Shown: positions 1,217 to 64,000 of the stretch, one piece after another
How positions within the stretch are numbered: position 1 is the first letter of the stretch
Layout of the letters: each line of letters begins with the position of its first letter
NCBI GenBank assembly: GCA_032906765.1
Contig: JAJTZB010000005.1
Coordinates: forward strand, 1-64,000
DNA: 64,000 bases
From: Nitrososphaerales archaeon
GTDB lineage: Archaea; Thermoproteota; Nitrososphaeria; Nitrososphaerales; Gagatemarchaeaceae
Reading direction: 5' to 3'
Notes under the pieces: model-generated
What the model was told of the DNA's origin: nothing
Seen by the model: only the letters and a program-made list of their open reading frames with translations
Databases searched by the model: none
Position numbers and translations under genes: made by a program

Positions 1217-1225
1217 GAGGGAAGT

Positions 1226-1251
1226 GCGGTCGCCGGGATTTAAACCCGGTT
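1226..1251 (-). repeat. Partial copy of tRNA-Gly(TCC) 3' end (copy 1)
   Basis: About 26 nt match the acceptor and T-arm of the complete tRNA at 9011-9084, in the same orientation. The T-loop cytosine is changed (TTTAAAT for TTCAAAT) and one C is missing. No D-arm, anticodon arm or 5' acceptor strand follows, so this is not a gene. GAAGT flanks it outside the tRNA boundary, as at copies 2 and 3. Confidence 0.8.
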
Positions 1252-1421
1252 CAGTTCCATTGCTTACAGCCACGCAGTGGTGCGGGACGAACATGCTGCA
1301 TACTTGTGTTCGGCTGGCGTTCAGGTCGAATATTCCCTCGCGCGTTCGCAACTATCGTCCGCGCTACTGGCGTAGAAGCCGACGGCAACTTCGCAACTAT
1401 TGACTTGGCAGGCTCTGTCAC

Positions 1422-2216: not shown

Positions 2217-2286
2217 CTTTCCTTCGGGGTTCAGACACTTCTTGGTATTTAAGGTGGGAAGCGATTCTCAGGTCTGATAAGGAAGT

Positions 2287-2312
2287 GCGGTCGCCGGGAA
2301 TTGAACCAGGGC
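2287..2312 (-). repeat. Diverged partial copy of tRNA-Gly 3' end (copy 2)
   Basis: GTGCGGTCGCCGGGA is identical to the tRNA-Gly 3' end, and the T-arm copy that follows has diverged. Sequence to about 2345 looks vaguely like a decayed tRNA body (CCC could serve as anticodon), but U33 and several stem pairs are missing. It carries the same GAAGT flank as copies 1 and 3. Confidence 0.7.
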
Positions 2313-2462
2313 TACTGGGGTCGCAGAAGGCCTCCAATCTTTGGACAGGTAATCATGAACTTGTAATAGCATTCCAAAAGTGCTAGCAGCCATCCAACCG
2401 GTTAGGTCTGATTCCCCATACGCAGGCTCTCAATTGATTTCATCCTAGACATTAGGCCAAAG

Positions 2463-2470
2463 GCTTATAG
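2463..2470 (+). promoter_or_regulatory. TATA box for the permease/deaminase pair
   Basis: CTTATAGT lies about 25 nt before the ATG at 2488, so the permease mRNA is probably leaderless. Confidence 0.45.
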
Positions 2471-2487
2471 TCACCGAATACACATTC

Positions 2488-4179
2488 ATGCTACCCTTGT
2501 CATCGAGTGAGACTGATGATCGGGTAAAATACGTACGGTTCGAAAAAGATAAGGGATATCTCGAACTCGACAAGACATTTCCCGAAGAGAAGTATCTTTG
2601 GAACGAAGACTTTCATCCAACTCCAGTCAAGCTGAGGAGATGGGGCTCGTGGACATTCTTCGCCGTCTGGTTCGGCATGGCGGTCGAAGTGGAGTCCTGG
2701 GCGCTCGTATCTATCGGTTATTCCTTTGGTCTTGACTGGTTCTACTCCCTCCTAGCAGTGATAATCGGCAACGTAATCGTCTTAGTGCCGATGATTATCC
2801 AAAGCCACGGTGGCGCCAGGTACGGCGTTCCTGAGACCCCCCTCACTAGGAGCAGGTGGGGAATCTACGGCAACTGGATCCCATCGATAATCCGAGGCGT
2901 CATCGGCGCAGGTTGGTGGGGAATCGACACCTGGATCATCGCTGAATGCGTTGGGGCGATCTACCTCATCAACACGAACCAGCTCCAGTCCTTGTTCACT
3001 TCCGTCTCCAACGGCACAGCTTCCCCATTCACAATCGCAACAGTGGTTCCTATACTCTTCTGGGCTACCTTCCTTGTAACAATCGCCATCAGGCTGATAA
3101 TCCTGTTTTACTCTCCCCCGAAGACTGGCCAGAGGACTCTGCAGATAATCTCCTGGACGGTCCCATTCATTGGGTTCTTGGGCTTCGGAATACTCTTCTT
3201 CAGCATGATGAACCTCTCGGGCTGGCAGTGGACCGCCATCCTCAACACACCTATGACCGTCAGCGGTTCCGCCTTCTGGTACGCGCTCATCGGTCTCATC
3301 AACGCGAACGTCGCGTTCTGGGCCACGATGGCAATAAGCATGCCCGACTTCACGAGATACGCGAAGTCTCAATTCTCCCAGACCGTTGGACAGTTGCCCC
3401 TTCCCATCCTGATGGGCGGAATCGGCCTCCTCGGACTCGTTACCACAGGGGCATCTCTGGTCTACTACAAGGTACCGATATGGGACCCGGTGTTGCTATC
3501 GGCACTCGCGATCTCGAGTCAGCCCTTGGCCTATCTTACGATAATCTTCCTCCTTCTCGGAGTAATAGTCGTCAACATCTATGCAGATACCATTGGCCCA
3601 GGCTACGACTTCTCCAATCTCTATCCGAAGAGAATCACCTGGTTCATGGGGGTTGTGATAGTCGTCATCATCGCAGCCATCTTGCAGTCGTGGAGCTATT
3701 ACTTCAGCGCCCAAACCTACGTTGAGAACTGGCTTCTGACATACGGCGCCATACTAGGCGGCGTCGAAGGGATCATCACCTTCGACTATGCGGTGATACG
3801 TAGGTTCAAATTCGAAATCTACGACCTGTTCTATTCCAAGGGCCGCTTCAGGTACTTCCGAGGCTTCAATCCCGCAGCCATGATCGCATTCGCAATTTCC
3901 ATGGTGCTCGTGTTCCCTCCAAGTACATACATCAATCCATCCATGGCGTTGCTCTATCCGGGTCAGGACTGGGTCTTCCAGAACGCATGGGTCTCGGCAA
4001 TCGCGATTGCAGGCCTAGTCTACATCATACTGATGGCCCTATGGGTGATACCGAAGTATCAACCAGAACTAAAGGGGAGCCTGACGAAGGGCTACATCGC
4101 TGACGACACGGCCACAACTTTCGGAGTTGCTAAGCACGCAAGCGCAGTAGACAAGGAAAAGACCACTCCCGCCCCGTAG
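2488..4179 (+). CDS. NCS1-family nucleobase:cation symporter
   Basis: The 563-residue polytopic membrane protein has about twelve hydrophobic segments. It belongs to the nucleobase:cation symporter-1 family (cytosine, uracil, allantoin and hydantoin permeases). Family features include the early charged segment RRWGSWTFFAVWFGMAVEVE, a first-half glycine-rich GVIGAGWWGIDTWI, and SMPDFTRYAKS before the eighth helix. A cytosine-deaminase-like gene starts 18 nt downstream. The pair therefore resembles bacterial codBA, suggesting uptake followed by hydrolytic deamination of cytosine or a related ring compound. The unit lies between tRNA-Gly fragments 2 and 3. The family is secure; the exact substrate is not. 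Confidence 0.88.
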   Translation: MLPLSSSETDDRVKYVRFEKDKGYLELDKTFPEEKYLWNEDFHPTPVKLRRWGSWTFFAVWFGMAVEVESWALVSIGYSFGLDWFYSLLAVIIGNVIVLVPMIIQSHGGARYGVPETPLTRSRWGIYGNWIPSIIRGVIGAGWWGIDTWIIAECVGAIYLINTNQLQSLFTSVSNGTASPFTIATVVPILFWATFLVTIAIRLIILFYSPPKTGQRTLQIISWTVPFIGFLGFGILFFSMMNLSGWQWTAILNTPMTVSGSAFWYALIGLINANVAFWATMAISMPDFTRYAKSQFSQTVGQLPLPILMGGIGLLGLVTTGASLVYYKVPIWDPVLLSALAISSQPLAYLTIIFLLLGVIVVNIYADTIGPGYDFSNLYPKRITWFMGVVIVVIIAAILQSWSYYFSAQTYVENWLLTYGAILGGVEGIITFDYAVIRRFKFEIYDLFYSKGRFRYFRGFNPAAMIAFAISMVLVFPPSTYINPSMALLYPGQDWVFQNAWVSAIAIAGLVYIILMALWVIPKYQPELKGSLTKGYIADDTATTFGVAKHASAVDKEKTTPAP

Positions 4180-4197
4180 AGGAGCGAGTGACCTATA

Positions 4198-5496
4198 GTG
4201 CCGGAAGAATACGACCTAGTAATTCGCGGCGCTCGAGTGCTCGGCAAGCCGGGCGACAAACTCTTCGACGTGGCAGTCGACGAAGGGAGGATCAGGAAGC
4301 TATCTGAGCATATCTCGGCAAAAGGAGAAGAAGAGATAGAAGCCCAGGGCAGACTCATCCTCCCCGGTTTCTTCAACATGCACTTCCATCTCGACTCTGT
4401 ACTCAAAATGGGTGATCCGAGGTACAACATCAGCGGAACTCTGTGGGAAGGAATCCAGATCTGGGCAGAAATCAAGAACAAACTGACGGAAGCGGAAATA
4501 CTGTCCAGGGTGGAAAGGGCGGTAAAATGGATGGCCGCTTACGGCACCCTCTGGCTCAGAACCCACGCGGACACCACAACAACCAACCTGAACACAGTCA
4601 AAGCTCTCGTAACGGGAAGGAAAGAGTTGCAAGACCTCGTAAACATCCAAGTCACCTCGTTCCCTCAGGACGGAATCAGAACAGACCCGGGCAACCTAGA
4701 GCTTCTCGAAAAGTCGCTCGAGCTCGGCGCCGACAACGTCGGCATGATTCCTCACAATGAGTGGACTAGAGAGGACGGGGTGAAATCAATCGAGGACGCA
4801 TTCCGCCTCGCGACCAAGTTCAACAAGGACATCGACGGCCACATAGACGAAACCGACGACCCATCATCCAGGTTCCTTGAGGTCGTCGCAGCCAACACCA
4901 TCCGGCAAAAGTGGATCGGACGCGTCACCGCTGGACACGTGACCGCGAGCCACAGCTGGGACTCAGCATACAGGTACAGGATCTCAAGTCTCATCTCAAA
5001 GGCTGGCATAACCATCATCGCAAACCCGCTAATCAACATGCACCTACAGGGAAGACTCGACGGCTATCCGAAGAGGCGGGGCATGGCACCAATCAAGTTC
5101 TTCCTCGCATCGGGCGTCAACGTGAGCCTCGGACACGATTGCATCATGGACCCCTGGTACCCATTGGGTGTGGGCGACATGCTGCAGGTTCTGTTCATGG
5201 CCGTCCATGTGGACCAGATGATGGGCCAGCAGGAACTAGCGGACTCTATCAACCTGATAACATACAACGCATCGAAAGCTTGGAGGAACACGGCGATTTA
5301 CGGCCTCGAAGAGGGCCGGAACGCGAACTTCGTCCTGGCAAACGCGTTCACCGTCCTCGACGCAATCAGGACCCTCGGTCCTCCGCTTTACGTCATAAAA
5401 GACGGGCGAATCATCGCAAAGAACCTTTCAAGGATGAGCAGCGAGATACTCCACAACAAGAAGTGGGAAACGCTCGAATTCGTCAAGGCCGACTGA
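4198..5496 (+). CDS. Cytosine-deaminase-like amidohydrolase
   Basis: The 432-residue metal-dependent hydrolase matches the CodA layout. It has the metal-binding HFHLDS (HxH) near residue 62, the catalytic HIDETDDPSSRF block, HVTASHSW with a further metal His, and GHDCIMDPWYPLG carrying the metal Asp. In E. coli CodA the last block reads GHDDVFDPW. The flanking beta-sandwich strands expected of amidohydrolases are present at both ends. The start is GTG, with GAGGAG about 13 nt upstream. It is co-transcribed with the NCS1 permease and probably deaminates cytosine or a close analogue such as creatinine or isocytosine. A T-run follows the stop. Confidence 0.85.
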   Translation: MPEEYDLVIRGARVLGKPGDKLFDVAVDEGRIRKLSEHISAKGEEEIEAQGRLILPGFFNMHFHLDSVLKMGDPRYNISGTLWEGIQIWAEIKNKLTEAEILSRVERAVKWMAAYGTLWLRTHADTTTTNLNTVKALVTGRKELQDLVNIQVTSFPQDGIRTDPGNLELLEKSLELGADNVGMIPHNEWTREDGVKSIEDAFRLATKFNKDIDGHIDETDDPSSRFLEVVAANTIRQKWIGRVTAGHVTASHSWDSAYRYRISSLISKAGITIIANPLINMHLQGRLDGYPKRRGMAPIKFFLASGVNVSLGHDCIMDPWYPLGVGDMLQVLFMAVHVDQMMGQQELADSINLITYNASKAWRNTAIYGLEEGRNANFVLANAFTVLDAIRTLGPPLYVIKDGRIIAKNLSRMSSEILHNKKWETLEFVKAD

Positions 5497-5513
5497 ATAT
5501 CTCTTATCTTCCA

Positions 5514-5520
5514 TTTTTTT
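5514..5520 (+). terminator. T-run terminator after the deaminase
   Basis: Seven consecutive T residues begin 17 nt after the deaminase stop codon. Poly-T on the non-template strand is the usual archaeal termination signal. Confidence 0.5.
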
Positions 5521-5539
5521 CTGTTCTTGTGAATGAAGT

Positions 5540-5550
5540 GCGGTCGCCGG
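5540..5550 (-). repeat. Short copy of tRNA-Gly 3' end (copy 3)
   Basis: GAAGTGCGGTCGCCGG ends abruptly at the T-stem. The acceptor 3' strand, the discriminator base and the flanking GAAG are shared with copies 1 and 2. It sits between the deaminase terminator and the helicase promoter. Confidence 0.7.
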
Positions 5551-5662
5551 TTCGCACACGTAATTGCGTTCAAATTCCCCAGTCCACCATCGACATCTGT
5601 AAGAGGCTGGGTTTATTTCTCCCCTTCCGACAATGGTGTTTTAGAGGGCTCGGGAGATTCTT

Positions 5663-7522
5663 TTGGCTAGCAACGAATTCAACATCCGTAATTCTCCGGA
5701 GCCAGTTGCCTTGGAGGAAGAAAGAGAGCGACAAGCCGAAGAAGCGGCTGGCAAAATAGCGAAACCAAGACTTCCAATCTTTTCAATCCTTGATTCAATA
5801 GATTTTTCTGACCATTTCGTAATTATCGGCGACGTCGGGACAGGAAAGAGCACCGTAACCCCGATTCACGAATTTGAGTTATGCAACAGGAGCAGACAAA
5901 TCGTCATTCGTGAGCCATCAAGGGCCTCGTGCAATGCGCTATTCTATTCACTTGAAGCGCTTCATCCAGAAATGAAAACCGAACTAGCCGTCATCACAAA
6001 GGACACCAAGATTAATGTCGGTGGCAAGATCAAGATAGTCACAGATGGCGTCCTGCTTAGAATGCTAGCCGAGAACTCAATTTTCGATTCTTCAATCTAT
6101 TTTGATGAAAGTCATCAGATGTCATCCCAGCTAGAACTGTGTCTGTCAATTGCCAAGAAGCAGGAAGGGAAAGCAAGGAACTTGTTTCGAGTCATGAGCG
6201 CCACAATTGATCCAAATGAGTTCCTCTCCTTCTTGAGAGTGTCAAAACTCTATTCGCTGAGCGGGCGTAGATATCCGGTCGCGCTCGAGGTAGAGCTTGC
6301 AAGGGACCTCGATGAAATGTTCGAAACCCTGTCCCACTATCTTTATTCGCAGCCCCACAATGAATCGTGGCTGGTCTTCCTCCCCACAAGGCGCTTGGTC
6401 GAAAGATATGCCAGCAGCTACGGTGGCGTCTACATTCACGGAGGCCTTGAGGGTTCAGAGGTCAACAAGATTCAGCAAAGAGCTGAGCTCGATAAGAATC
6501 TGAGGGTCTTTGCGACAAATGTTATCGCTTCCTCCGTAAACATCTATGTTGACAATGTATTGATACTCAATGAGGTGATTGATAGCAAGGACAAGCTAGG
6601 TCATAAGACACTCCAATACAAGAAAATAGACAATAACTCTCTCTTGCAAATGATTGGGAGAATCGGTCGATTCAAGCCCGGTCGGGCCGTCATCATCTCT
6701 GATACACCCATCCCAAAGAAGATCCACCCGATACCGGTGCGCAAGGCTCTTGAAACCGAGACTCCGTTTGATTTGGTGCTCCTCATGTCAAAGTATGGCC
6801 TCAAGCTTTCAGAGCTAGAGTTCATGTCAAAGGTAGATTATCGTGAAGTTAACTTTGCAGAGGACTGGCTTATTGAGATTGGAGCAATCAATCGCCATCC
6901 CCATGAAATCACTTGGAAGGGACTCTTGATGAGCGAGACCCCCTACGAGCCCGACTTTTCACACATGATTTCCAGCGCCCTAATTTCAGGTGATTATAAT
7001 ATGGCTAGATTTCTCCTGGCCAGCGGCGCGTTCGGCGATTCACTCAACCACGCCTACAAGTCGGACATGGAAGGCATTGCTCGCGAATTCTTGTACGCCT
7101 TCGACAAGTCAAACGAGCTCAATATCAAAGCGCATCTTCTCAAAGGATATTCGGAGGATAGGGAGGGTTCATTCGCCTCAAGACTGGTCGCAAACGGACT
7201 CTTTACCGCATTCGTTGAGGAAGCATGGAAGAACTATGAAGCAGCTAGAGAAGCATTGAATGACTTGCTTCTTTCTTCGAGGAAGGAACCGATACCCAAG
7301 GAGGTCTTGATAGACCCTGATGTCTCCAAGCTCAAGCCATATCTCGAAGATTGTCTTTCGTTTGAAGAGTTCGATTTATACGAAAAGAACGAACACGACC
7401 TGCACGAAATGATCATCGAAGGTCAGTTCTTTGCAAGAACGTTGACGATAAACTTCAGACGCATACTATTCGATGTAGTTGCGATCAATCCAACGAAGAA
7501 GAATCGCCATCAAAGCAGGTGA
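5663..7522 (+). CDS. DEAH-type superfamily 2 helicase-like ATPase
   Basis: The 619-residue protein has recognisable SF2 helicase motifs: Walker A GDVGTGKST (about residue 57), motif Ia REPSRAS, motif II FDESH (DESH in place of DEAH), motif III SAT, motif V-like FATNVIASSVN and motif VI QMIGRIGRFKPG. The order and spacing recall HrpA/HrpB and viral NS3-like RNA helicases. The roughly 300-residue C-terminal part is unfamiliar. Codon use is clearly more AT-rich than in the neighbouring ribosomal genes, suggesting transfer. It is the sole gene between tRNA-Gly fragments 3 and 4. The start is TTG. A role in RNA or DNA unwinding, perhaps in a mobile element or defence setting, is inference. Confidence 0.72.
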   Translation: MASNEFNIRNSPEPVALEEERERQAEEAAGKIAKPRLPIFSILDSIDFSDHFVIIGDVGTGKSTVTPIHEFELCNRSRQIVIREPSRASCNALFYSLEALHPEMKTELAVITKDTKINVGGKIKIVTDGVLLRMLAENSIFDSSIYFDESHQMSSQLELCLSIAKKQEGKARNLFRVMSATIDPNEFLSFLRVSKLYSLSGRRYPVALEVELARDLDEMFETLSHYLYSQPHNESWLVFLPTRRLVERYASSYGGVYIHGGLEGSEVNKIQQRAELDKNLRVFATNVIASSVNIYVDNVLILNEVIDSKDKLGHKTLQYKKIDNNSLLQMIGRIGRFKPGRAVIISDTPIPKKIHPIPVRKALETETPFDLVLLMSKYGLKLSELEFMSKVDYREVNFAEDWLIEIGAINRHPHEITWKGLLMSETPYEPDFSHMISSALISGDYNMARFLLASGAFGDSLNHAYKSDMEGIAREFLYAFDKSNELNIKAHLLKGYSEDREGSFASRLVANGLFTAFVEEAWKNYEAAREALNDLLLSSRKEPIPKEVLIDPDVSKLKPYLEDCLSFEEFDLYEKNEHDLHEMIIEGQFFARTLTINFRRILFDVVAINPTKKNRHQSR

Positions 7523-7623
7523 TGAGGAATCCACCAGGCTCCGCTTTCCGCGGAAGCCCGAGTAGAACCCATTGCTCCCTCCGGGGAGGCTAGCCGATTC
7601 TCTACGTCCGCATGGCAACAGGT

Positions 7624-7636
7624 GCGGTCGCCGGGA
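7624..7636 (-). repeat. Short copy of tRNA-Gly 3' end (copy 4)
   Basis: GTGCGGTCGCCGGGA matches the tRNA-Gly acceptor and first T-stem bases. The MFS stop codon (7637-7639 on the reverse strand) directly abuts it, so the repeat boundary coincides with the gene end. Confidence 0.7.
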
Positions 7637-8926
7637 CTACAGCTCTACATGTTTAGCTGAAACACTGCGGACTCCAACGTCAGCCTGTAGGATACCCTGC
7701 TTGCTCTCCTTGAAAGTCGATAGGAGCAGCAGCAAGGCGACTAGTGAAATTGTTGCCACGCTTGCGAATCCTACGGCAGGCGTGAACAGTGTCCAGAGAA
7801 TGCCTATCATTGCGCTTGAAATGAAATCGCCCACTCCGTTGACCGTTTGTAGAACTCCATATCCTGTACCTCTCTGGGAGCTGGCTAGCGTTTCAGAGGC
7901 CAACGCCCTCTCCACCGTGTCGACTATCGCAGTTTGAAGCCCAGCGAAAACAAAAATCGTGATCAGAATCGGCAAAGTCGGGGTCTCGAAGATTGATGCA
8001 ATGCAGGCTAGAGCGAAGACCAAGTACCCCAAAGCTAGAAGGTTTCGCTTCGAAACCCTATCGGCGAGGTATCCTGCCGGGAAAGAACCTAGTGCGTAAA
8101 TCATGTTCAACAGCAAATACAGAAGCACGGCGAGCTGTGAAGCGCCCGATATCCCGAGTGAGGGTTGAAGGACTTGCTCGGCTCTTAGGGTGAAGATCAC
8201 GTTGGAGAAGTTGGCAATTCCGAACAGGCCAACGCTGACCAACAGCACCTTGAACCGTCTCGGAAGAGTCCTGATCGACAGAAGGAAGGACATCGGGTCT
8301 CCACCAGAGCCCGGTTCTGCCCTCCTGGTCCGTGGCCTATCCTTCACCAGTGTGAAAACAACGGCGACACAGACGACTGCAGGAACGGCAGAAACGAAGA
8401 AGATTGCAGAGAAATTGAGATAAGGAATCAAGAGAAGTGCGATGGCCGGGCCTATGACCGCCCCTATCGTGTCGAAGGTTCTCTCGAAGCCGAACGCCTT
8501 CCCCACCGCTTCCCTCGGAACAGAATCGACCATCAAAGCGTCTCTAGGAGGACCTCTCGCACCTCTTCCTACCCACGCTCCCACTCGGAGAGCGAGAACC
8601 TGAACCCAAGAGACTGCAAAGCCGATTGCCGGGATCAGAATCCCGGTCAAAATGTAGCCGAGGTACATTATCGGCGTCCTCTTGCCCAATTTGTCGGAGT
8701 AGTAACCTGAATACGACTTTACGAAGCTTGCAGCTCCGTCAGAGGCGCCTTCCACAAGTCCTACAATTGCTGCGCTTCCGCCTAAGGTAAAGACAATGAA
8801 GAAAGGAAGTATCGAGGTCGCCATTTCATGGCTCGTGTCAGAGAACAAACTTGTCAGGCTCATCCCCAGCACGTTTCTGTTCAGCCAGGCTCGGGGACTG
8901 GACGCAGGTGGACTCTCCTGAGTCAT
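7637..8926 (-). CDS. Major facilitator superfamily transporter
   Basis: The 429-residue protein has about twelve membrane helices in two halves. The cytoplasmic loop between helices 2 and 3 carries the MFS signature in a variant form (GYYSDKLGKRTP), with a related loop YLADRVSKRN in the second half. GRGARGPPRDALMVDSVP resembles the helix 4-5 region of drug or metabolite exporters such as the YnfM/Bcr type. The substrate cannot be predicted. It occupies the whole interval between tRNA-Gly fragment 4 and the complete tRNA-Gly gene. Confidence 0.82.
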   Translation of the reverse strand: MTQESPPASSPRAWLNRNVLGMSLTSLFSDTSHEMATSILPFFIVFTLGGSAAIVGLVEGASDGAASFVKSYSGYYSDKLGKRTPIMYLGYILTGILIPAIGFAVSWVQVLALRVGAWVGRGARGPPRDALMVDSVPREAVGKAFGFERTFDTIGAVIGPAIALLLIPYLNFSAIFFVSAVPAVVCVAVVFTLVKDRPRTRRAEPGSGGDPMSFLLSIRTLPRRFKVLLVSVGLFGIANFSNVIFTLRAEQVLQPSLGISGASQLAVLLYLLLNMIYALGSFPAGYLADRVSKRNLLALGYLVFALACIASIFETPTLPILITIFVFAGLQTAIVDTVERALASETLASSQRGTGYGVLQTVNGVGDFISSAMIGILWTLFTPAVGFASVATISLVALLLLLSTFKESKQGILQADVGVRSVSAKHVEL

Positions 8927-9010
8927 CGACCGAGGGTCTGATTACCACGTCTAATAGCTAATTTAGTCCAACCCGCTGAGCTTGAAGAAAGCTTGAGCCC
9001 GGATTGCTGT

Positions 9011-9084
9011 GCGGTCGCCGGGATTTGAACCCGGGTTACCAGCTTGGAGGGCTGATGTCCTAGACCAGACTGGACGACAACCGC
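9011..9084 (-). tRNA. tRNA-Gly(TCC)
   Basis: The complete 74-nt intron-less cloverleaf has a 7-bp acceptor stem GCGGTTG/CGACCGC, D-arm GTCC/GGAC, an anticodon arm with loop CCTCCAA (anticodon TCC), and T-arm CCGGG-TTCAAAT-CCCGG. The discriminator is A73 and CCA is not encoded. Four partial copies of its 3' end lie on its 3' side at 1226, 2287, 5540 and 7624. Confidence 0.95.
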
Positions 9085-33022: not shown

Positions 33023-33919
33023 ATGGCAGACCCGAAGGAACCTCTGCTCACTACCGTGGCCAAGGTGGGAATCTCAGACGAGTTCGCTGACTTCACGCTT
33101 TACGACAGACTGGCGAAGAGGGTCGCCAACAACTCGTCATTCGCCGAGGTCCTCCGCGAGCTTTCTGCAACCGAGAAGAGGCACTACGAATTCTGGAAGA
33201 AGTACATCCCAGAGGAGAAGCCCAAGTTCAGCCGAGCCAAGCTCTACTTGGTCCTACTCTTCCAGACAATCTTCGGGCTCACCTTTGCAGTCAGATACCT
33301 TGAGAGACACGAATCCACGGTCATCAAGCAGTACAAGTCCGTCGCCGACATTATCCCAGCGGAGGACAAGGAGGCTTTCAGGGAGATCATAAGAGAGGAG
33401 GAGCAACACGAGAAGGAGTTCAGGGGGAGGGTTGAGAGCTCCTCCATCCGATACATCTCGTTCGTGGTGCTTGGGCTCGCTGACGCGCTTGTCGAGATTA
33501 CCGGCATCCACGCTGGCTCGCTCGGGATCTACAACTCGACAGTGATTGCAGGCCTGGCGGGTGTAATCGCTGGCGGTGCAGCGTCGTTGGCGATGGCCTC
33601 GGCTGCGTTCGCCCAAGCAAAGCAGGGATTCCAGGGCTCGGCAAGACTCTCGGCTGTCTACACAGGAATCTCGTACTTCGTCACTGCAGTCATCCTGGCA
33701 GCGCCGTACTTCCTGACCAGGGTGATGCTGAACGCGCTCTCCGCGTCGCTCTTCTTCGCAGTCGTGATTCTGGCGCTTGCCACCTACTACAGTTCTGTGA
33801 TTTCGTACAAACCATTCACGAGGGACTTCGTCGAGATTCTGCTGATAATGTTCGGTGTCACCGCCGCCCTGTACTTCTTCGGCTACTTCATCAGGGACCT
33901 GACCGGGATAACAATCTGA
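33023..33919 (+). CDS. Ferritin-like domain fused to VIT1/CCC1 membrane transporter
   Basis: The 298-residue protein is in two parts. Residues 1-140 look like a rubrerythrin/ferritin-type helical bundle with iron-ligand Glu and His (SATEKRHYEFW, YLERHEST and IIREEEQHEKEF). Residues 145-298 form about five membrane helices of the VIT1/CCC1 iron/manganese family (VLGLADALVEITGIHAG, VIAGLAGVIAGGAASLAMA, GISYFVTAVILAAPYFL). The combination suggests oxidation or sensing of Fe(II) coupled to its transport across the membrane. It appears monocistronic. Confidence 0.82.
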   Translation: MADPKEPLLTTVAKVGISDEFADFTLYDRLAKRVANNSSFAEVLRELSATEKRHYEFWKKYIPEEKPKFSRAKLYLVLLFQTIFGLTFAVRYLERHESTVIKQYKSVADIIPAEDKEAFREIIREEEQHEKEFRGRVESSSIRYISFVVLGLADALVEITGIHAGSLGIYNSTVIAGLAGVIAGGAASLAMASAAFAQAKQGFQGSARLSAVYTGISYFVTAVILAAPYFLTRVMLNALSASLFFAVVILALATYYSSVISYKPFTRDFVEILLIMFGVTAALYFFGYFIRDLTGITI

Positions 33920-33973
33920 GCGACCAACCCAGTCCCGCAGGCTTGAAGCGCAGACGGACACTGGTTCGACGCG

Positions 33974-34843
33974 TTGCGTCCCCACGACCAGGGTTTCGTT
34001 GAGGTCCTCGGCTACAGGCTGTTCTTCAGGAGCTTCGGCAGGGACGAGAGGGGGACTGTGCTCTGTCTCCACGGCGGTCCGGGCGCGACCCACGATTACC
34101 TGCTCCCCATGGCCGACCTCTCGAACCATGGTTACAGGGTGGTCTTCTATGATCAGCTCGAGTGCGGCAGGTCCTAGGTCCCGAAGGACCACGCGCTCTT
34201 CGTCCCGGAGCGCTACGTCGAGGAGGTCGAGCATTTCAGGAGGAGGATGAGACTCGGCAGAGTCCACGTCATAGGTTCGAGCTGGGGCGGAATGCTCGCA
34301 ATAGCCTACGCGCTGAAGTACCAGCGGAACCTGCTAAGCATAACCACCGTAGGAGGGCTCCATGATGTCCCGCTCACGGTCAGGGAGATGCAGAGGATGA
34401 AGGGCCGACTTCCCGAGAGAGTTGTGCAGACCCTTGAGAAGTACGAGGCGAAGGGGGACTACGACAACCCGGCCTACCAGAAGGCTGCGATGGTCTTCTA
34501 CAGGAAGCACATCTGCAGGCTGAAGAAATGGCCAAGGGAGCTAGCCTATTCGCTTAACCACATCAGCCGGCCAGTTTACCACACGATGAACGGCCCCAAC
34601 GAGTTCACAATCACAGGCAACATCAGGTACTGGGACGTTACGGAGCAGTTGCGAACAATCCGCGTCCCGACACTCGTAGTCACCGGCGAATACGACGAGG
34701 TGTCGCCCAAGGTTGGGAGAGCAATCCACGAGGGCATCCGAGGTTCGAAACTTGTGATATTCCCAGGTTGTTCCCACACGCCCTTCTGGGAGAACCGCGA
34801 GGAGTTCATCTCAACAGTCTCGAGGTTTCTTCAGGCAACCTGA
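33974..34843 (+). pseudogene. Proline iminopeptidase-like hydrolase interrupted by in-frame TAG
   Basis: The alpha/beta hydrolase of the Pip family would be 289 residues. It has the oxyanion motif HGGPGATHDY, DQLECGRS, the nucleophile elbow GSSWGG, the acid region TGEYDEVSP and the catalytic His in GCSHTPFW. One TAG codon at 34175-34177 interrupts the frame right after ECGRS, and the reading frame is unchanged on both sides (VPKDHALFVPERYVEEVE follows). Relatives normally have one ordinary residue there, often Glu, so a single substitution such as GAG to TAG explains it. The downstream ORF alone would lack the oxyanion hole. Confidence 0.75.
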
Positions 34844-34882: not shown

Positions 34883-35686
34883 TTACTCGAGAGCGCCCTT
34901 CTTGACTCCGACCAGGAGTCCCCTTTTGCCTGTCAAGGACTCGGCCAGATACTCTGCGTCGAACCCGCTCTGCCGCATCATGGCCAGCATCTCCTGCTTT
35001 TCGAAGAACCTCATCACATGGTTCGTCTTCAGATACGAGACGCCTTTGTTCCTCTCAGCGATTAGATACCTTTCGTCAAGGAACGAGAATGCTCCCCTCG
35101 CCCGGCCGTAGTCCACCCTAACTATCTTGAGTTCTGGACCTACATACATCTTGACATCGGCCGTTTTGTCTCTCCACTTGGATTTCATTATCCATGGCTC
35201 GATAATCAACACGCCGCCAGTGTTGGTGTGCTTCGCGAAGTTGTCGATCGCCTTTCGGACTCTCTTCCTCGTCTTCAGGTAACCAATGGCGCTAAACAGG
35301 CAAGTCACAACATCGAAGCGCCTCCCGAGGGCGAAGTCTACCATGTCACCCTGCTCGAACCTCCTCCCAGGCACTTCTCTTCGTGCTACCGCTAGCATCT
35401 CCCTGCTGTTGTCGATGCCGACGCACTCGAAGTTCCGTCTCAGGTACCTGATGTGCATCCCAGTGCCGCAACCGACATCTAGCAGTGTGCGACAGCGAAT
35501 TCTGCCACGACTGCGGACAAGCCGATTGACTTTGATTGCCTCCTTACGATAGTCCTTCCAGTGGTAGATTCGGTCATAGTACTTGGCCAATGGGCCATAC
35601 AGTCCACTCTCTGTTTTCAGGCTGTCCGACGTTAGGTGGAGGCGACGGAATAAGAGTTGTGTGTGGCCCTCACAACGCCCCAACAC
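34883..35686 (-). CDS. Class I SAM-dependent methyltransferase
   Basis: The 267-residue Rossmann methyltransferase has motif I LLDVGCGTGMHIRYL, the acidic loop CVGIDNSREML, motif FDVVTCLFSAIGYL and conserved YGPLAKYYDRIYHWKDY near the N-terminus. This matches small-molecule methyltransferases of the UbiE/Methyltransf_25 type. The first 20 or so residues are probably not part of the real protein, but no better start is obvious. Its 5' end lies about 10 nt from a tRNA-Arg 3' fragment at 35695. The substrate is unknown. Confidence 0.75.
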   Translation of the reverse strand: MLGRCEGHTQLLFRRLHLTSDSLKTESGLYGPLAKYYDRIYHWKDYRKEAIKVNRLVRSRGRIRCRTLLDVGCGTGMHIRYLRRNFECVGIDNSREMLAVARREVPGRRFEQGDMVDFALGRRFDVVTCLFSAIGYLKTRKRVRKAIDNFAKHTNTGGVLIIEPWIMKSKWRDKTADVKMYVGPELKIVRVDYGRARGAFSFLDERYLIAERNKGVSYLKTNHVMRFFEKQEMLAMMRQSGFDAEYLAESLTGKRGLLVGVKKGALE

Positions 35687-35694
35687 GGAGGAGG

Positions 35695-35714
35695 CGGGTC
35701 CGGTGGGATTCGAA
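35695..35714 (-). repeat. Partial copy of tRNA-Arg(TCT) 3' end (far copy)
   Basis: GGGTCCGGTGGGATTCGAAC matches the acceptor and T-arm of the tRNA at 36950-37056 with two changes, in the same orientation. Homology ends after the T-loop. GGCGGG flanks it, as at the nearer copy. Confidence 0.75.
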
Positions 35715-35795
35715 CTCTAATAGGCGTCAAAGCCTCGCTCTGGTAATCATTTTGGAGATAGCCAAGGCGTGGCTTGCTAGCAATTGGGTTGACTT

Positions 35796-36188
35796 CTACT
35801 TGCGATTCCTCGGGTCGTCATTCTCGTCCAAGTAATGGATGTCGAAAGGTTCGTACCCGTAGGCAAGAAAGACGCATTCCTCTGGACAATCGACAATGTA
35901 TTGCATCTTCCTAGGTAGGAAGAAGAAGCCACCTCGTCCGATTCTGACCTCCTGCCATCCTGTCCGACGAATTATCATCGACCCTTCGATTATTGCTACC
36001 CAGACGTCATTCGTATGCCAATGCATTGGCACAGCGTACTTTGCAGGGAATTTCCCGAAGAAGGCGTAGTTGCCCTCTGGAGGATTCCCGAAGACGTTGA
36101 AGGAATGGGCACCTGGAGGAAGAGTCTCCTTAGGTTTCCAATGGAAATCTCTTGGGTTGGAAGCCCGCAATGGGTCGCTTTGTGCCAT
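35796..36188 (-). CDS. Cupin-domain protein
   Basis: The 130-residue single cupin domain carries metal ligands in MHWHTNDVWVAIIEGSM (HxH and Glu) and a second motif FFFLPRKMQYIVDC. It resembles small cupins of the ChrR/AraC-sensor kind. It is the only gene between the two tRNA-Arg 3' fragments and is oriented like the tRNA. No specific role is evident. Confidence 0.7.
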   Translation of the reverse strand: MAQSDPLRASNPRDFHWKPKETLPPGAHSFNVFGNPPEGNYAFFGKFPAKYAVPMHWHTNDVWVAIIEGSMIIRRTGWQEVRIGRGGFFFLPRKMQYIVDCPEECVFLAYGYEPFDIHYLDENDDPRNRK

Positions 36189-36249
36189 TATCTCGGGTCC
36201 GAAGTTTCGGGAAGATTCCCTTTATTCCTTACGATACCCATTCAAAGGC

Positions 36250-36266
36250 GGGCCCGGTGGGAATCG
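36250..36266 (-). repeat. Partial copy of tRNA-Arg(TCT) 3' end (near copy)
   Basis: GCGGGCCCGGTGGGA is identical to the 3' end of the tRNA-Arg gene, in the same orientation, and homology is lost within the T-stem and loop. Confidence 0.75.
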
Positions 36267-36302
36267 CATGGAAAACCGTGGCAAGTTCGGACCTGAACTC
36301 TC

Positions 36303-36896
36303 CTAGATCGACCTTCTCATCAGAACGTTGCTTCTTCCGAAGGGGGCGACTTTCTTGAAGCCCTCGCGTTCGAACATCGATACGGTCCCAAACCATACAG
36401 CAAGAGCCCCCGACCGGACCGCAGGGTAGCCTTCGACAAGTCCTCCTCCCTTCTTCTCCATGCTGCGCAAGGCTGCCTTCAGCCCGGCAGTCGCTACTCC
36501 TTTTCTCCTGAACTTCCTGTCGACGACGAAGCATGTTATTCTCCAAAGTTTCTTACTATCATCTCCAAGGGCGAGCTTCTTGTATTTTCGACCGGCGTCA
36601 ACCCTAGGCAACTCCTCTTTCGGTCCGTATTGACACCACCCGACAGGTTCTCCCTTTGCGTAGACAAGAATCCCATGTGAACATCTCTCTTTCACGAGTT
36701 CCAACTTATCTTCTCGATTCTTTGCGATTCTCTCCTCTCTAGTCAAGCCCATCTTGTCGGCCCAACTTTTCAGAGAGTGCGGTCTCTGATAGTACATGCA
36801 CCAGCATCCACCCCACTCGCCGGGCTTTTCGAAGAGCCGCTCGAAGTCCGGCCATGTCTCCAGAGATAGCTCCCTGGTGACCAATTTCACTTCCAT
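36303..36896 (-). CDS. GNAT-family N-acetyltransferase
   Basis: The 197-residue protein has the acetyl-CoA-binding segment ITCFVVDRKFRRKGVATAGL (R-R-K-G-V-A) and a C-terminal FEREGFKKVAPFG typical of GNAT enzymes. The N-terminal GGCWCMYYQRPHSLKSW is characteristic of a GNAT subgroup found beside stress genes. It fills the interval between the near tRNA-Arg fragment and the tRNA gene. The substrate is unknown. Confidence 0.75.
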   Translation of the reverse strand: MEVKLVTRELSLETWPDFERLFEKPGEWGGCWCMYYQRPHSLKSWADKMGLTREERIAKNREDKLELVKERCSHGILVYAKGEPVGWCQYGPKEELPRVDAGRKYKKLALGDDSKKLWRITCFVVDRKFRRKGVATAGLKAALRSMEKKGGGLVEGYPAVRSGALAVWFGTVSMFEREGFKKVAPFGRSNVLMRRSI

Positions 36897-36949
36897 GTGA
36901 CTCTCAACTCCTGTGAACCACTGGCTTAAGGTTGACTTGGTGCTGAAGC

Positions 36950-37056
36950 GGGCCCGGTGGGATTTGAACCCACGACCTCTGCGAGCTTAGCTCTCTACAG
37001 CTTAGAAGGCTGCCACGCTATCCGTACTGCGCTCCTAAGATCTGCGCTACGGGCCC
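36950..37056 (-). tRNA. tRNA-Arg(TCT) with two non-canonical introns
   Basis: The 107-nt gene has acceptor GGGCCCG/CGGGCCC, an anticodon arm GCAGC-CTTCTAA-GCTGT (TCT) and T-arm GTGGG-TTCAAAT-CCCAC. It is about 31-33 nt too long. About 15 nt are extra in the D-arm region (GCGCAG is repeated at both edges, so the boundary is ambiguous), and about 16-18 nt lie between the anticodon stem and the variable loop (bounded by repeated AGAG). Removing both gives a normal 74-76 nt tRNA. Exact splice sites are not resolved. Confidence 0.88.
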
Positions 37057-37154: not shown

Positions 37155-38522
37155 TTGGCTGTATCACAGCAGAGGCTCTTTGGTACAAACGGGGTCAGGT
37201 TCGTTCCTGGCGTCTCGCACGACCTCGACTTCGTGATAGCTCTCAGTGAGGCACTGGGAACGTACTTCGGAGAGGGGGAGGTCCTTCTCGGTCAGGACGG
37301 CAGGAACTCGAGTCCGGCCGTAGCCAACGCAACAGTGGCGGGCCTGATGAGTTCGGGTCGTGACGTGGCAGAGGCTGGTGTGGTCCCAACCCCGGCGCTG
37401 CAGTACGCGGTGAAGACTCTGGGCTTCAAGGGGGGCGTAATGGTGACGGCCTCCCACAATCCACCGGAGTACAACGGCCTGAAGGTGATGGGGCCAGAGG
37501 GGGTCGAGATACCAAGGCTGGACGAGCAGCGTATAGAGAAGGTCTTCTTCGACGGCGCACAGACGAGGGCTGACTGGAAGAGTGTGGGGGTGGCGCGCCA
37601 AGAGCCATCAGTTGTGAGAAATTACCTCAAGGGGGTGCTCTCGAAGGTGAACGCGAAGTCGATATCAGAAAGGAAGTTCACGGTCGTCATGGACCTGGGC
37701 AACGGGGCCCAGTGCGCGGCCGCTCCATACCTCGTGGAGGCGCTCGGCTGCAAGCTGATCACGCTCAACTCGATTCTGGATGGGAACTTCCTCGGAAGGG
37801 GCCCAGAGCCCACGCCGGATGCCCTGAAGGACCTCTCCCTCGCCGTTAGGTCTGTCGGGGCCGACCTCGGCGTTGCGTACGACGGAGACGGCGACAGGTC
37901 GATCTTCTGCGACGAGGACGGCAGAATCCTGTGGGGCGACCAAAGTGGTTGCCTCATCGCCGACTACCTCCTCGAGAAGAACCCAGACAGCACCGTTGTC
38001 ACCCCCGTGAGCTCCGGTCAGGCGATAGATGTCGTGGCGAAGAAGAGGGGCGGGAAGGTGATCAGGACCAAGGTCGGCAGCGTGGAGGTCTCCAGGACGA
38101 TGCTGGAGAGGAAGGCTCTCTTCGGCTTCGAAGAGAACGGGGGGTGCATCTACTCGCCGCACATACCCGTCAGAGACGGCGCGATGACAACCGCGCTGAT
38201 GTTAGAGTGCCTGGCGGCCAGGGGCGTCGCTTTCTCGCGGGCAGTGTCTTTCTCCGTCTCGAAGTTCTTCCAAGCAAAAATGAAGATTGAGATTGAGAAG
38301 AAGAAGGTCGGTGCAGTCATGAGGGCAGTGGAGAGGCAGGCGAAGGGAGAGGTCGAGCGCATCGATGGGCTCAAGATATTGACGGACGAGCACTCTTGGG
38401 TTCTGGTCAGGCCGAGCGGGACGGAGCCGATAATCAGAATCTTCACCGAGTCCCAGAGTCAGGAGAAGGCTGACGCTCTCACGAAGAGGTTCGCCAAAGT
38501 GATCAAGGCAGCCTCAGCGTAA
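37155..38522 (+). CDS. Phosphoglucosamine/phosphomannomutase family protein
   Basis: The 455-residue alpha-D-phosphohexomutase has an N-terminal FGTNGVR, the phosphoserine loop VTASHNPPEYNG, the metal loop AYDGDGDRS, the sugar loop FGFEENGG and the phosphate-binding RPSGTEPIIRIF. It interconverts 1- and 6-phosphates of glucosamine, mannose or glucose; FEENGG with RPSGTEP leans towards GlmM-like archaeal enzymes. The TTG start was chosen because upstream sequence is the tRNA. It converges on thiL with a 9-nt overlap. Confidence 0.88.
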   Translation: MAVSQQRLFGTNGVRFVPGVSHDLDFVIALSEALGTYFGEGEVLLGQDGRNSSPAVANATVAGLMSSGRDVAEAGVVPTPALQYAVKTLGFKGGVMVTASHNPPEYNGLKVMGPEGVEIPRLDEQRIEKVFFDGAQTRADWKSVGVARQEPSVVRNYLKGVLSKVNAKSISERKFTVVMDLGNGAQCAAAPYLVEALGCKLITLNSILDGNFLGRGPEPTPDALKDLSLAVRSVGADLGVAYDGDGDRSIFCDEDGRILWGDQSGCLIADYLLEKNPDSTVVTPVSSGQAIDVVAKKRGGKVIRTKVGSVEVSRTMLERKALFGFEENGGCIYSPHIPVRDGAMTTALMLECLAARGVAFSRAVSFSVSKFFQAKMKIEIEKKKVGAVMRAVERQAKGEVERIDGLKILTDEHSWVLVRPSGTEPIIRIFTESQSQEKADALTKRFAKVIKAASA

Positions 38523-60522: not shown

Positions 60523-60606
60523 GCGGGGGTCGCCCAGCATGGTCAAAGGCGTGGGACTGAGGCTCCCATCCCTTAGGGGTTCGTGGGTTCAAATCCCACC
60601 CCCCGC
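60523..60606 (+). tRNA. tRNA-Leu(GAG)
   Basis: The 84-nt class II tRNA has acceptor GCGGGGG/CCCCCGC, anticodon arm TGGGA-CTGAGGC-TCCCA (GAG), a long variable arm (TCCCTTAGGGGTTC) and T-arm GTGGG-TTCAAAT-CCCAC. Discriminator A73; CCA is not encoded. No intron is needed. Two partial 3'-end copies lie downstream at 61694 and 63858. Confidence 0.95.
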
Positions 60607-60615
60607 ACTTGGTCT

Positions 60616-61584
60616 TTAGGCAGTAGTCACTTCAAAGGAAGAATGGAAGACTATCCCTTCAACCGTCACAGTTGCCTGGAAAGTTCCTGGCGTTGAGTTG
60701 CCGCCGATTGTCCATGAAGCCGAACACGAACCATCAGGATTGGTCACGCAAACGAAGTCCTTGGTCGTCTGACCCGAGGCATAAAGCACATGGATTGACA
60801 CTTGGGTGTTGGAGACAGGACCATCAGAATCGCTTACCCCTACATAGATGGTCTGGGTCGAACCTCGTGAGATCGGGTTGTTCGCATATGAAATTGAGAC
60901 ATTGAGACCGTAGGCAGTTTGAGTCGAAGTGTAGGTGACAGTGGTTTCTGAGGAGATTGCCCATGAAGTTACAGGATGAATTTCCCAGCAAGTGTCTCCA
61001 TGCCAACTCTCGGACTGGTGATAAGTGTCGCAGTAGGGAACCCCTGTCTCGTCTATGGTTGAACCCACCGATGGTTTGCTGACCGTGGATTGGTAGGTTG
61101 GCGTAATTTCCGTGATGAACACGCTGACCTGCCCGTCAGTCACCGCAACATGCCAATCCCCATCGCTTTCATCACGAACGTATAGAACCAGCAGGTTGTG
61201 GACTGTGACAATGACACCTCCTGTCCCCTGTTTGTCCGTGGCGCTCGGGGATTTTCCAGCAATTATGTCTTCAAGTGTGACGCCTGAAACTGAGGTCGTC
61301 GAAATTGAGGAACTTGATGATGTGATGGGCGCAGTTGACGTTGTGGTAGAAGAGGATGAACTCGTCATGCTGGAAGAGGAGCTCGATGGCTGAGATGTTG
61401 ACGGAGAGGAAGCGGTGCTGGAGAACTCTGATGATGCGAACGACGATGACTCCGAAGCCGAGGACGTTGATGAATTTGTTGTCGGTTGATTTTGAGCAGG
61501 AAGTAACAGGCTCCCAACCGCGCCCAGACCGATCAGAACCAGAAAGGCAACCCCGACAGCAACGATTACTCTCTTGGTTCTCAC
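60616..61584 (-). CDS. Secreted Ser/Thr-rich surface protein
   Basis: The 322-residue protein has an N-terminal membrane helix (VIVAVGVAFLVLIGLGAVGS), then a roughly 80-residue stretch composed almost wholly of Ser, Thr and Ala. A folded part follows with two Cys pairs (VPYCDTYHQSESWHGDTCW and FVCVTNPDGSCSASW) and an Ig-like segment near the end (STPGTFQATVTVEG). The linker probably carries O-glycans. It is the only gene between tRNA-Leu(GAG) and its first 3' copy. It is more AT-rich than core genes nearby. No function is known. Confidence 0.7.
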   Translation of the reverse strand: MRTKRVIVAVGVAFLVLIGLGAVGSLLLPAQNQPTTNSSTSSASESSSFASSEFSSTASSPSTSQPSSSSSSMTSSSSSTTTSTAPITSSSSSISTTSVSGVTLEDIIAGKSPSATDKQGTGGVIVTVHNLLVLYVRDESDGDWHVAVTDGQVSVFITEITPTYQSTVSKPSVGSTIDETGVPYCDTYHQSESWHGDTCWEIHPVTSWAISSETTVTYTSTQTAYGLNVSISYANNPISRGSTQTIYVGVSDSDGPVSNTQVSIHVLYASGQTTKDFVCVTNPDGSCSASWTIGGNSTPGTFQATVTVEGIVFHSSFEVTTA

Positions 61585-61693
61585 AAACCGCCCATCTCCT
61601 AGTCAGATGCTAATAAGGACATAACTTCCGCCAAGTATGCTAGGTTGAATTGCCGCTTCTAGGCCAAGATTCTAATCCACTTATGTGTCAGCG

Positions 61694-61709
61694 AATCCCA
61701 CCCCCTGCA
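61694..61709 (+). repeat. Partial copy of tRNA-Leu(GAG) 3' end (near copy)
   Basis: AATCCCACCCCCTGCA matches the last bases of tRNA-Leu with one change, in the same orientation, followed by CCA. The interval 61585-61985 contains no gene; the rest of it shows nothing else I can support. Confidence 0.6.
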
Positions 61710-61985
61710 CCAATAATCGCATCTCATGGTTGGATGAAGCAGATAGTCCCCCACCCGGCTTCCCATCACATTGTTTCTTGTCCATCCCTCCTGTCCTGAA
61801 TCTCAGAGATTCGAACTTTTGATTTCGAATATGACTTCTGCGAAATTGATACGGACGCCTTCTGGCCCGCGCGGAATCTATCGACTCCGGCTCAGGCTTG
61901 GAGCTTCGCTCTGCTTTCAGAGCCGATGTAGATCAAGAAGTCCCTGTTGGATTCCACGATCTCCTTGACCGTTTCCTCCCACTTC

Positions 61986-62402
61986 CTACGTTCGCTCTGT
62001 GACATTCTTGACCAGTCTCTTCATCACGTCGTGAACTTCATTTAAGGTTGCTCCTGCAACTCCTGCCTTGTCAGCGACCCGAACAAGCTCTTCGTCTGTT
62101 AGGGCGATGGTATAGCCATTCATCTTGAGGAACGCAGCCCCAGCCACCAGGGCGGTCCTCTTGTTGCCCTCGTGGAAGTGCTGCCCGCTGGCAATCCGGT
62201 AGACCAACAGGGATGCCTCCTGAATCACCGCCTCCTCGAAATCAACGTCGTTCGCCACGGACGCTACTTCCCTCACCAAATCCCTCAGCCTCTCATCATC
62301 GTACTCAGTGTGCTCATGGAGTTCTCCTGTCAGTGAAACAACCTCCTTGTTTATCATGACGAGCGTGGCGAAGTCTGGGTGCCGAATCTTCTTTCTCCGC
62401 AA
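61986..62402 (-). CDS. Fic/Doc-family protein
   Basis: The 138-residue protein has the Fic motif HFHEGNKRTALVAGAAFLKM (HxFxxGNKRT with catalytic His) and a helical bundle like phage Doc. Doc toxins phosphorylate EF-Tu/EF1A while Fic proteins AMPylate targets; which applies is unclear. No antitoxin-like gene lies beside it on either side, so it may be an orphan. It sits in the tRNA-Leu fragment-bounded region. Confidence 0.82.
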   Translation of the reverse strand: MRRKKIRHPDFATLVMINKEVVSLTGELHEHTEYDDERLRDLVREVASVANDVDFEEAVIQEASLLVYRIASGQHFHEGNKRTALVAGAAFLKMNGYTIALTDEELVRVADKAGVAGATLNEVHDVMKRLVKNVTERT

Positions 62403-62476
62403 CGCCTACCTGATTCTAGGCTTCTGCTTTAAGCGGTTCCCGGTGCTTGTAGGGACTTCTCCAAGAGGTTCAGGGG

Positions 62477-62525
62477 AACGAGATTCGAACCCTCGGCCAC
62501 GTTGGGCTGGAGCAGATTTGAACCC
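62477..62525 (-). repeat. tRNA T-arm-like remnants between the Fic/Doc and UbiA genes
   Basis: Two stretches, CGAGATTCGAACCCTCGG and GCAGATTTGAACCCGAAGG, look like reverse-complement T-arms of tRNAs without the rest of a cloverleaf. No complete tRNA is present, and I cannot assign an amino acid. Confidence 0.4.
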
Positions 62526-62611
62526 GAAGGTCCCTATTCCTGCCCCCGCGCTTCATTCTAGAGTTGTATTCCCGGCTACCCCACACTTTGAATCCCTACG
62601 TGAAGTCGAGT

Positions 62612-63637
62612 CTAGGCCAGCGGCAGGTAGTAGGGGAAGAGAACGCCAAGCAGCAGCCCAAAGACGAAGAGCGTCCCGAACCGCCTGTTGTGCGCGAAGA
62701 CGAAACCAAGGTACCAGATGGGCCACATGACGTACCCCGCCGGAGGCTCATTGGGCTTCGGCTCGGAGAGATTGCGGAAGAGCTGATTGGCCTTCGGCAG
62801 TGCGAGGAGGCTGAGAAGCGACCAGACGGGCAGTAGCCTGATGAGCACCAGTCCGACCACTGCCGCGTAGGCGATGACAATTAGCGCCTTCAGGACGCTT
62901 TTCGTGGTCTTCTCGCCAAGGATCACCGGGAGAGTCTTCACTCCGATTTTGGCGTCGTAGTCTATCTTGTCGATGTGCTTTCCGAACAGCACAGTGGTGA
63001 CGGAGACGGCGTATGGTATGGAGGCTATGATGATCCAGGCGGGCAGCGCGCCAGTGAGGACGTAGTAGCTTCCGCCGACCATCAGCGGCCCCCAGACAAG
63101 GAAGACGGCCGGCTCGCCGAGGCCGATGCGCTTGAGCGGCTTCGGGCCTCCCGCATAGAGCGTCAGGGATACCACGCCGAGACCAGCGAAGAGGATGACG
63201 AGTGGGCCCCTGACCACGACAAAGTATGATGCGATGGCAACCATGGCGACAAGGTGGACCAGGCCGAGGGAGAAGAGGCCCTTCTGGCTCATCATGCCGG
63301 AGATGGATGGGTGCGGGAGATAGGCGGGTCTGAAGTAGCCCTCGGTGGTGTCAATGCCGTGCTTTGCGTCCCAGTAGTCGTTGAACAGGTTGCTGGTGGC
63401 GTGCGCAAAGGTCAGGCCGAGCGCAAGAAGTATGAAGTATGGAAGCAGAACGGACGTCACGCCCACGGCGGTGACAGCAAGCAGGGTCCCAATTATCACA
63501 GAGTTGACAGTCATGACGAAGACGACCGACCTGGTGGCGACTAGCCAGCGGCTGAGAGCGTCAAGGCCTTGGACGGGCTGGGTCTTCGGGTTGTAGGTCC
63601 CGTTCAGAATCGAGTACCAGGTCCCGAGGGTGCCCAT
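62612..63637 (-). CDS. UbiA-family prenyltransferase
   Basis: The 341-residue protein has about eight helices and the two Asp-rich motifs of the UbiA superfamily: NLFNDYWDAKHGIDT and DKIDYDAKIGVKTLPVILG. It transfers a prenyl chain to an aromatic or lipid acceptor, for example in menaquinone-type quinone or archaeal lipid synthesis. The distribution of motifs leans to MenA-like enzymes. A TATA-like CTTAAATAC lies near 63670 on the reverse strand. Confidence 0.85.
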   Translation of the reverse strand: MGTLGTWYSILNGTYNPKTQPVQGLDALSRWLVATRSVVFVMTVNSVIIGTLLAVTAVGVTSVLLPYFILLALGLTFAHATSNLFNDYWDAKHGIDTTEGYFRPAYLPHPSISGMMSQKGLFSLGLVHLVAMVAIASYFVVVRGPLVILFAGLGVVSLTLYAGGPKPLKRIGLGEPAVFLVWGPLMVGGSYYVLTGALPAWIIIASIPYAVSVTTVLFGKHIDKIDYDAKIGVKTLPVILGEKTTKSVLKALIVIAYAAVVGLVLIRLLPVWSLLSLLALPKANQLFRNLSEPKPNEPPAGYVMWPIWYLGFVFAHNRRFGTLFVFGLLLGVLFPYYLPLA

Positions 63638-63857
63638 CGACTGACGCCCTTCTCTCAGGTCAAGTTCGTATTTAAGAAGCGAGAGAACGCCAGCGGCTCA
63701 CACGCAGGTCTTCATGCATTCTTGCAAGACCATCTGCTATCGTCTAGGAGCGGAAACTTTGCCCTTTCGGCACAATGAATTGTGTTCTCGTCCCGGTGAC
63801 CACACTGCAATCTGGGCTCAGAAAGGTCTCGCCTTGAACACAGCGTGCATAATCCGG

Positions 63858-63872
63858 GTCCCACCCCACGCA
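63858..63872 (+). repeat. Partial copy of tRNA-Leu(GAG) 3' end (far copy)
   Basis: GTCCCACCCCACGCA matches the tRNA-Leu 3' end with one change in the last 14 nt and is followed by CCA, as at the near copy. Apart from this, 63638-64000 shows only the UbiA promoter and a T-arm-like CGGGTCTGATTCCCG near 63913; I see no gene there. Confidence 0.5.
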
Positions 63873-64000
63873 CCAGAATCCGATAATCTACTGGTAAGCC
63901 GAAACAATTTCGGGTCTGATTCCCGCCTAGCCTACCATCTGCCCAATCCGACACGGATCCACGTAGTCACCCAGCGGTCAGCGACTTATTAGGGCGTAGT

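Follow-up and report, generated by a model that had tools for sequence, protein, structure and literature searches.

In Streptococcus, CIMEs are units without an integrase that are bounded by att sites; lined up in tandem at one site they form accretion arrays, often with metabolic cargo, and those with cargo span 1.2-13 kb and were detected beside an ICE or IME (PMC7563491). Cryptic integrated elements of the thaumarchaea most commonly target tRNA genes, have att sites with a median length of 17 bp, contain an integrase by definition and are 2.6 kb long at the smallest (PMC6563490). Islander rejects candidates that are under 2 kb or lack an integrase (PMC4383910), so that compact one-gene units are missed by design.

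The array described here stands behind tRNA-Arg(TCT) in an uncultured archaeon of the Nitrososphaerota. Like the streptococcal accretion arrays, it consists of att-bounded units, in which no recombination or conjugation genes were found, in tandem at one site. It differs from them in its archaeal host, in the size of its units (from 554 bp, with one gene), in belonging to a genome with up to four such units in a row, and in holding no autonomous element. The tRNA remains whole on one side and its 3' fragment is displaced downstream in the same orientation, as in Islander islands and integrated plasmids of the pNOB8 type (PMC3293823); unlike in Islander islands, no integrase lies inside the units. 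With the thaumarchaeal cryptic elements the array shares the phylum, the 3' end of a tRNA as target and a short att, but its units are smaller and have no integrase, which sets them outside that definition.

Integron cassettes are tandem units of one or two genes, with a recombinase that comes from outside the unit. The Arg units are likewise small and tandem, and their recombinase would also be encoded outside them. However, they have no adjacent integrase and no conserved folded site of the attC kind at their cores, they are anchored to a tRNA, and gene orientation is mixed in the other arrays of the genome; no family relation to integrons is claimed. Unlike casposons, the units show no terminal inverted repeats inside the duplication and contain no Cas1. 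The array thus falls outside the definitions of cryptic elements, Islander islands, integrons and casposons alike, and is a variant of tRNA-targeted integration rather than a new kind. We read it as a tandem stack of small elements without an integrase at the 3' end of tRNA-Arg(TCT), recombined by integrases encoded elsewhere, a reading to which we assign a probability of about 0.78.

Layout of the array at tRNA-Arg(TCT)

The host DNA is the start of contig C5 in a 1.77-Mb archaeal MAG with an estimated contamination of 3.7%; the window is the whole stretch analysed, 64,000 nucleotides. The sequence GCGGGCCCGGTGGGA occurs exactly at 36248-36262 and again at 36948-36962, where it forms the 3' end of the tRNA-Arg gene, and recurs with one mismatch at 35694-35708. 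Read on the tRNA strand, the last 15 nt of tRNA-Arg(TCT) are TCCCACCGGGCCCGC, and both copies, approximately 0.7 and 1.2 kb downstream, share the orientation of the tRNA. ARAGORN misses or mislabels the tRNA-Arg in the window; in many relatives the gene in this position is identified as tRNA-Arg(TCT). The features are as follows.

33023-33919, plus strand: VIT1-like gene, conserved left border of the variable gap
33943-34843, plus strand: alpha/beta hydrolase gene, with an in-frame TAG at 34175-34177
34883-35686, minus strand: methyltransferase gene past the far core; no distal core found
35694-35708, minus strand: far att core, one mismatch to the 3' 15 nt of the tRNA
35694-36247, minus strand: unit 2, 554 bp including one core
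35796-36188, minus strand: cupin-like gene, sole gene of unit 2, 130 aa; PF07883 match under the curated cut-off
36248-36262, minus strand: near att core, exact copy of the 3' 15 nt of the tRNA
36248-36947, minus strand: unit 1, 700 bp including one core
36303-36896, minus strand: GNAT acetyltransferase gene, sole gene of unit 1, 197 aa, PF00583
36948-37056, minus strand: intron-containing tRNA-Arg(TCT) gene, which ends in the intact att core (last 15 nt, 36948-36962)
37164-38522, plus strand: phosphoglucomutase/phosphomannomutase (PGM) gene, conserved right border of the variable gap

The first-pass annotation had placed an exact copy of the tRNA end at about 36248 and one with a single change at about 35693, both oriented as the tRNA, with a cupin gene between them and a GNAT gene between the near copy and the tRNA. 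This arrangement holds, all on the minus strand, save that the far copy starts one base further on. A methyltransferase gene had been said to end close to the far copy; the closeness is real (8 nt), but the minus-strand ORF begins there. Its start may lie up to about 27 codons further in, as homologs align from residue 15-30. Past the far core the order is the methyltransferase ORF, the hydrolase gene broken by the TAG and then the VIT1-like gene. Both units are compact, with the gene taking up most of the 554 or 700 bp and the cores lying 40-100 bp from the gene ends. No integrase was recognised between 33919 and 36948, within either unit or next to the array; PF00589 matches lie elsewhere.

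The array had also been likened to one behind a tRNA-Gly, and the two do follow the same logic, as do those at several other tRNAs. The Gly-TCC array occupies window positions 1224-9084: the tRNA lies at 9009-9084 on the minus strand and cores are found at 7622, 5538 (two mismatches), 2285 and 1224. Its cargo comprises an MFS transporter, a DEAD-box helicase, a cytosine-type permease with an amidohydrolase, and an SDR dehydrogenase. At the other end of the window, the Leu-GAG array (60523-64000) runs out into the following stretch of the contig (L051, C5 64001-84000); its cores end at 61710, 63873, 65119 and 65983, and its cargo includes a UbiA prenyltransferase, Fic proteins and a methyltransferase.

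Integrases at tRNA ends and the origin of the units

Tyrosine integrases are present in the same genome directly behind tRNA-Arg(TCG), tRNA-Ile, one tRNA-Gly and tRNA-His, and about 0.5 kb behind tRNA-Lys. They lie in the orientation of the tRNA and, at four of the five, a matching 3' fragment follows downstream. In layout the autonomous elements are of the pNOB8 type, in which the integrase immediately follows the tRNA. tRNA-Arg(TCG) ends in the same 15 nt as tRNA-Arg(TCT). The integrase behind the former, encoded at C3:186154-187398, matches a PHROG integrase and is 28% identical to the His-linked one. Across the order, its family has matches in 98 of 151 genomes, spread over 36 of 48 genera. 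The element at tRNA-Arg(TCG) (G000:C3:184052-187582, 3.4 kb) ends in a core carrying the tRNA-Ile base, and a sister copy of the integrase, 84% identical, stands behind tRNA-Ile. Judged from these sequences, a single integrase type seems to use two different tRNAs, accepting both the Arg(TCG) and the Ile end.

Homologs of this integrase also lie at tRNA ends in relatives, two of them at TCCCACCGGGCCCGC. In JACQFN010000011 a gene of the family is found directly behind tRNA-Arg(TCT) itself, and an integrase gene has the same position in G014; tRNA-Arg(TCT) is thus a real target of the family. No composite of integrase with GNAT or cupin was seen at tRNA-Arg(TCT) in these two relatives, nor do the ends of the Arg units have arms in common with the integrase elements found in the genome. 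In JACQFN010000011.1 (L151, 473-4049), the integrase is followed by an ORF of 691 aa that resembles, by eye, a DNA methylase or restriction protein.

In the mechanism we propose, a tyrosine integrase would recombine the attB in the tRNA gene with an attP on the element that carries the same tRNA end, keeping the tRNA whole. Repeated use of one attB would stack units one behind another. The recombinases would be tyrosine integrases encoded outside the array. Foremost among the candidates is the family that stands behind tRNA-Arg(TCG) and tRNA-Ile here and behind tRNA-Arg(TCT) in the two relatives; we infer that the GNAT and cupin units owe their movement to the integrase at tRNA-Arg(TCG). As non-autonomous passengers, the units could move only with an integrase acting in trans, or in cis once an integrase element had landed at the same site.

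Alternatively, each unit may once have been a complete element at tRNA-Arg(TCT) that lost its integrase by internal deletion, leaving the array as a row of fossils. This is the classic origin of CIMEs (PMC7563491), archaeal elements are described as losing their integrase once integrated (PMC8371274), and integrase-bearing elements do occupy tRNA-Arg(TCT) in two relatives. The units themselves fit it less well: a gene fills most of the 554 and 700 bp, no integrase remnant was recognised in either, and several integrase-less arrays coexist in this genome, mostly with one or two intact genes per unit. Compactness favours units that were passengers, precedent favours decay, and we rate decay as a serious possibility with somewhat less than an even chance.

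The passenger reading can be carried further. Nitrososphaerales might run a distributed cassette system resembling an integron, in which tRNA 3' ends dock single-gene units with a short att derived from the tRNA end, while a small set of integrases residing at isoacceptor tRNAs carries out their insertion, stacking and excision in trans, each enzyme serving several tRNA genes with the same last 15 nt. We consider so general a scheme rather unlikely.

Copies of tRNA ends across the genome and structure of the cores

The genome was read in stretches totalling 1.23 of 1.77 Mb (~70%), with tRNA ends curated from the output of Rfam and ARAGORN. At up to one mismatch, the Arg 15-mer occurs at ten sites in the 1.23 Mb. 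Six are inside tRNA genes; the four others are the two copies in the array, one that bounds the integrase element at tRNA-Arg(TCG) and a further site on contig C11. For each tRNA, copies of the terminal 15 nt were sought up to 10 kb away on either side. This yielded 20 copies downstream on the same strand, one downstream on the opposite strand and none upstream. Shuffled tails gave a mean of 0.04 downstream same-strand copies (maximum 1) and the tails of other tRNAs a mean of 1.1 (maximum 4). A chance origin of the repeats is rejected on these counts, in agreement with the view taken in the first-pass annotation. The same asymmetry is seen in two relatives of another genus, with five copies against none in G012 and seven against none in G006, three of the latter behind one tRNA-Leu. 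Repeat-bounded units anchored to tRNAs are a genome-wide pattern that recurs in these relatives. In the single-contig G006 (L235, G006:C1 135318-147401), copies of the tRNA-Leu 3' end lie on the same strand 2.2, 3.2 and 4.5 kb downstream.

The cores match tRNA positions 60-74, that is, the last base of the T-loop, the 3' strand of the T-stem, the 3' strand of the acceptor, base 73 and the next base. When the 21 copies are compared with their cognate tRNAs, 18-21 of them agree at each position from -15 to -1 and 5, the background level, at +1; upstream of the 15-nt core the identity fades through the T-loop. In sequence terms, such a sharp stop at the tRNA 3' end is the look of tyrosine-integrase attachment sites in tRNA genes. 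The element-facing side of such a site comes from attP, and its far side from the old tRNA end. The two Arg cores have no clear left or right arms in common, which counts against our model, although distinct or old elements would look the same.

Terminal inverted repeats are not a general feature of the unit ends (mean 8.48, versus 8.30 in shuffles), which speaks against transposons and casposons. If a Cas1-type or DDE enzyme had moved the units, the 15-nt copies would be target-site duplications. Casposons do leave duplications of comparable length at tRNA 3' ends, and Cas1 genes are present in the genome. These are confined to contigs C6 and C11, however, with none in the units, and we regard a casposon or other transposon as very improbable. 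Hardly better placed is the idea that illegitimate or homologous recombination duplicated part of the tRNA end without any integrase. Such an event would suit short repeats in an array devoid of integrase, but it leaves unexplained the strand and side bias over many tRNAs, the fact that the copies break off sharply at one common point, the tRNA end, and the recurrence of that boundary in the integrase-bearing elements of the genome.

Two candidate features next to the cores were considered and rejected as general. A hairpin or attC-like structure before the core is absent at the Arg sites and strong in the t380 array (G000:C1:372495-380920; L091, L092), where four cores follow a tRNA ending in GGGCCCGC. 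The four t380 sites have a common left arm with a 6-bp stem and a 4-nt loop at a fixed distance from the core; the sequence of the stem varies and its pairing is kept. Two of them also have GGTTCGAYTCC 9 nt past the core. A left-arm motif resembling the T-loop, TTCGAACCC, scored 6.13 bits over 32 sites, versus 4.10 in shuffles; it was not recovered when one site per array was used, which counts against our model, and at least part of the signal thus reflects resemblance among sites of one array.

The locus and its cargo in relatives

Searches for a genome of the same genus found none. In relatives, the order LeuRS-VIT1-gap-tRNA-Arg(TCT)-PGM-AIRS-PGM2 is conserved, with a VIT1-tRNA gap that ranges from 0.39 kb (G022) to 7.9 kb (G024) and contains different genes. 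No recognisable cores accompany the genes in the relatives' gaps, a point against our model, as is the lack of an integrase in the array. GNAT homologs occur in 29 of the 151 genomes of the order and, the window itself apart, all lie away from this locus except one of 48% identity in G024. Cupin homologs occur in four of the 151, one of them 81% identical (G133), and none is at this locus outside the window; one further match, at 28%, came from 300 sampled genomes of the phylum. The two genes occur independently of each other and at other loci.

Conserved synteny of cupin, GNAT and tRNA, the observation that the first-pass annotation had named as contrary to mobility, is accordingly rejected: VIT1 and PGM stay, while cupin and GNAT are absent from the locus, the G024 homolog apart. 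Given differing gap contents and cargo homologs at other loci, the gap is a variable site at which genes come and go independently. That the genes are native to the locus, with repeats that are coincidental or serve as processing or terminator signals, is barely credible, for although the flanking genes are conserved and hairpins precede the cores of the t380 array, the repeats far outnumber chance, GNAT and cupin are missing as described, no hairpin occurs at the Arg sites, and the 15 nt cannot fold as a tRNA end because the 5' halves of both stems are missing.

For the G133 cupin homolog, DNA similarity begins about 10 nt inside the unit, beside a string that resembles a tRNA tail and does not fit the 15-nt core. 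A homolog of the gap hydrolase lies directly behind tRNA-Leu(GAG) in G012 and L156, and this placement suggests that the hydrolase may have moved between two tRNA sites. GNAT homologs as cassettes at other tRNAs found no support in relatives, in flanks where Rfam finds few tRNAs. Among the viral contigs searched, neither the integrase nor the cupin had a relative.

The finding gives a candidate integrase together with exact sites, and unit boundaries can be read from sequence alone. In our reading, small gene cassettes with no integrase of their own would dock at tRNA ends. Should compact units of this kind prove common among uncultured archaea, a considerable share of the gene gain there may run via tRNA ends and borrowed integrases.
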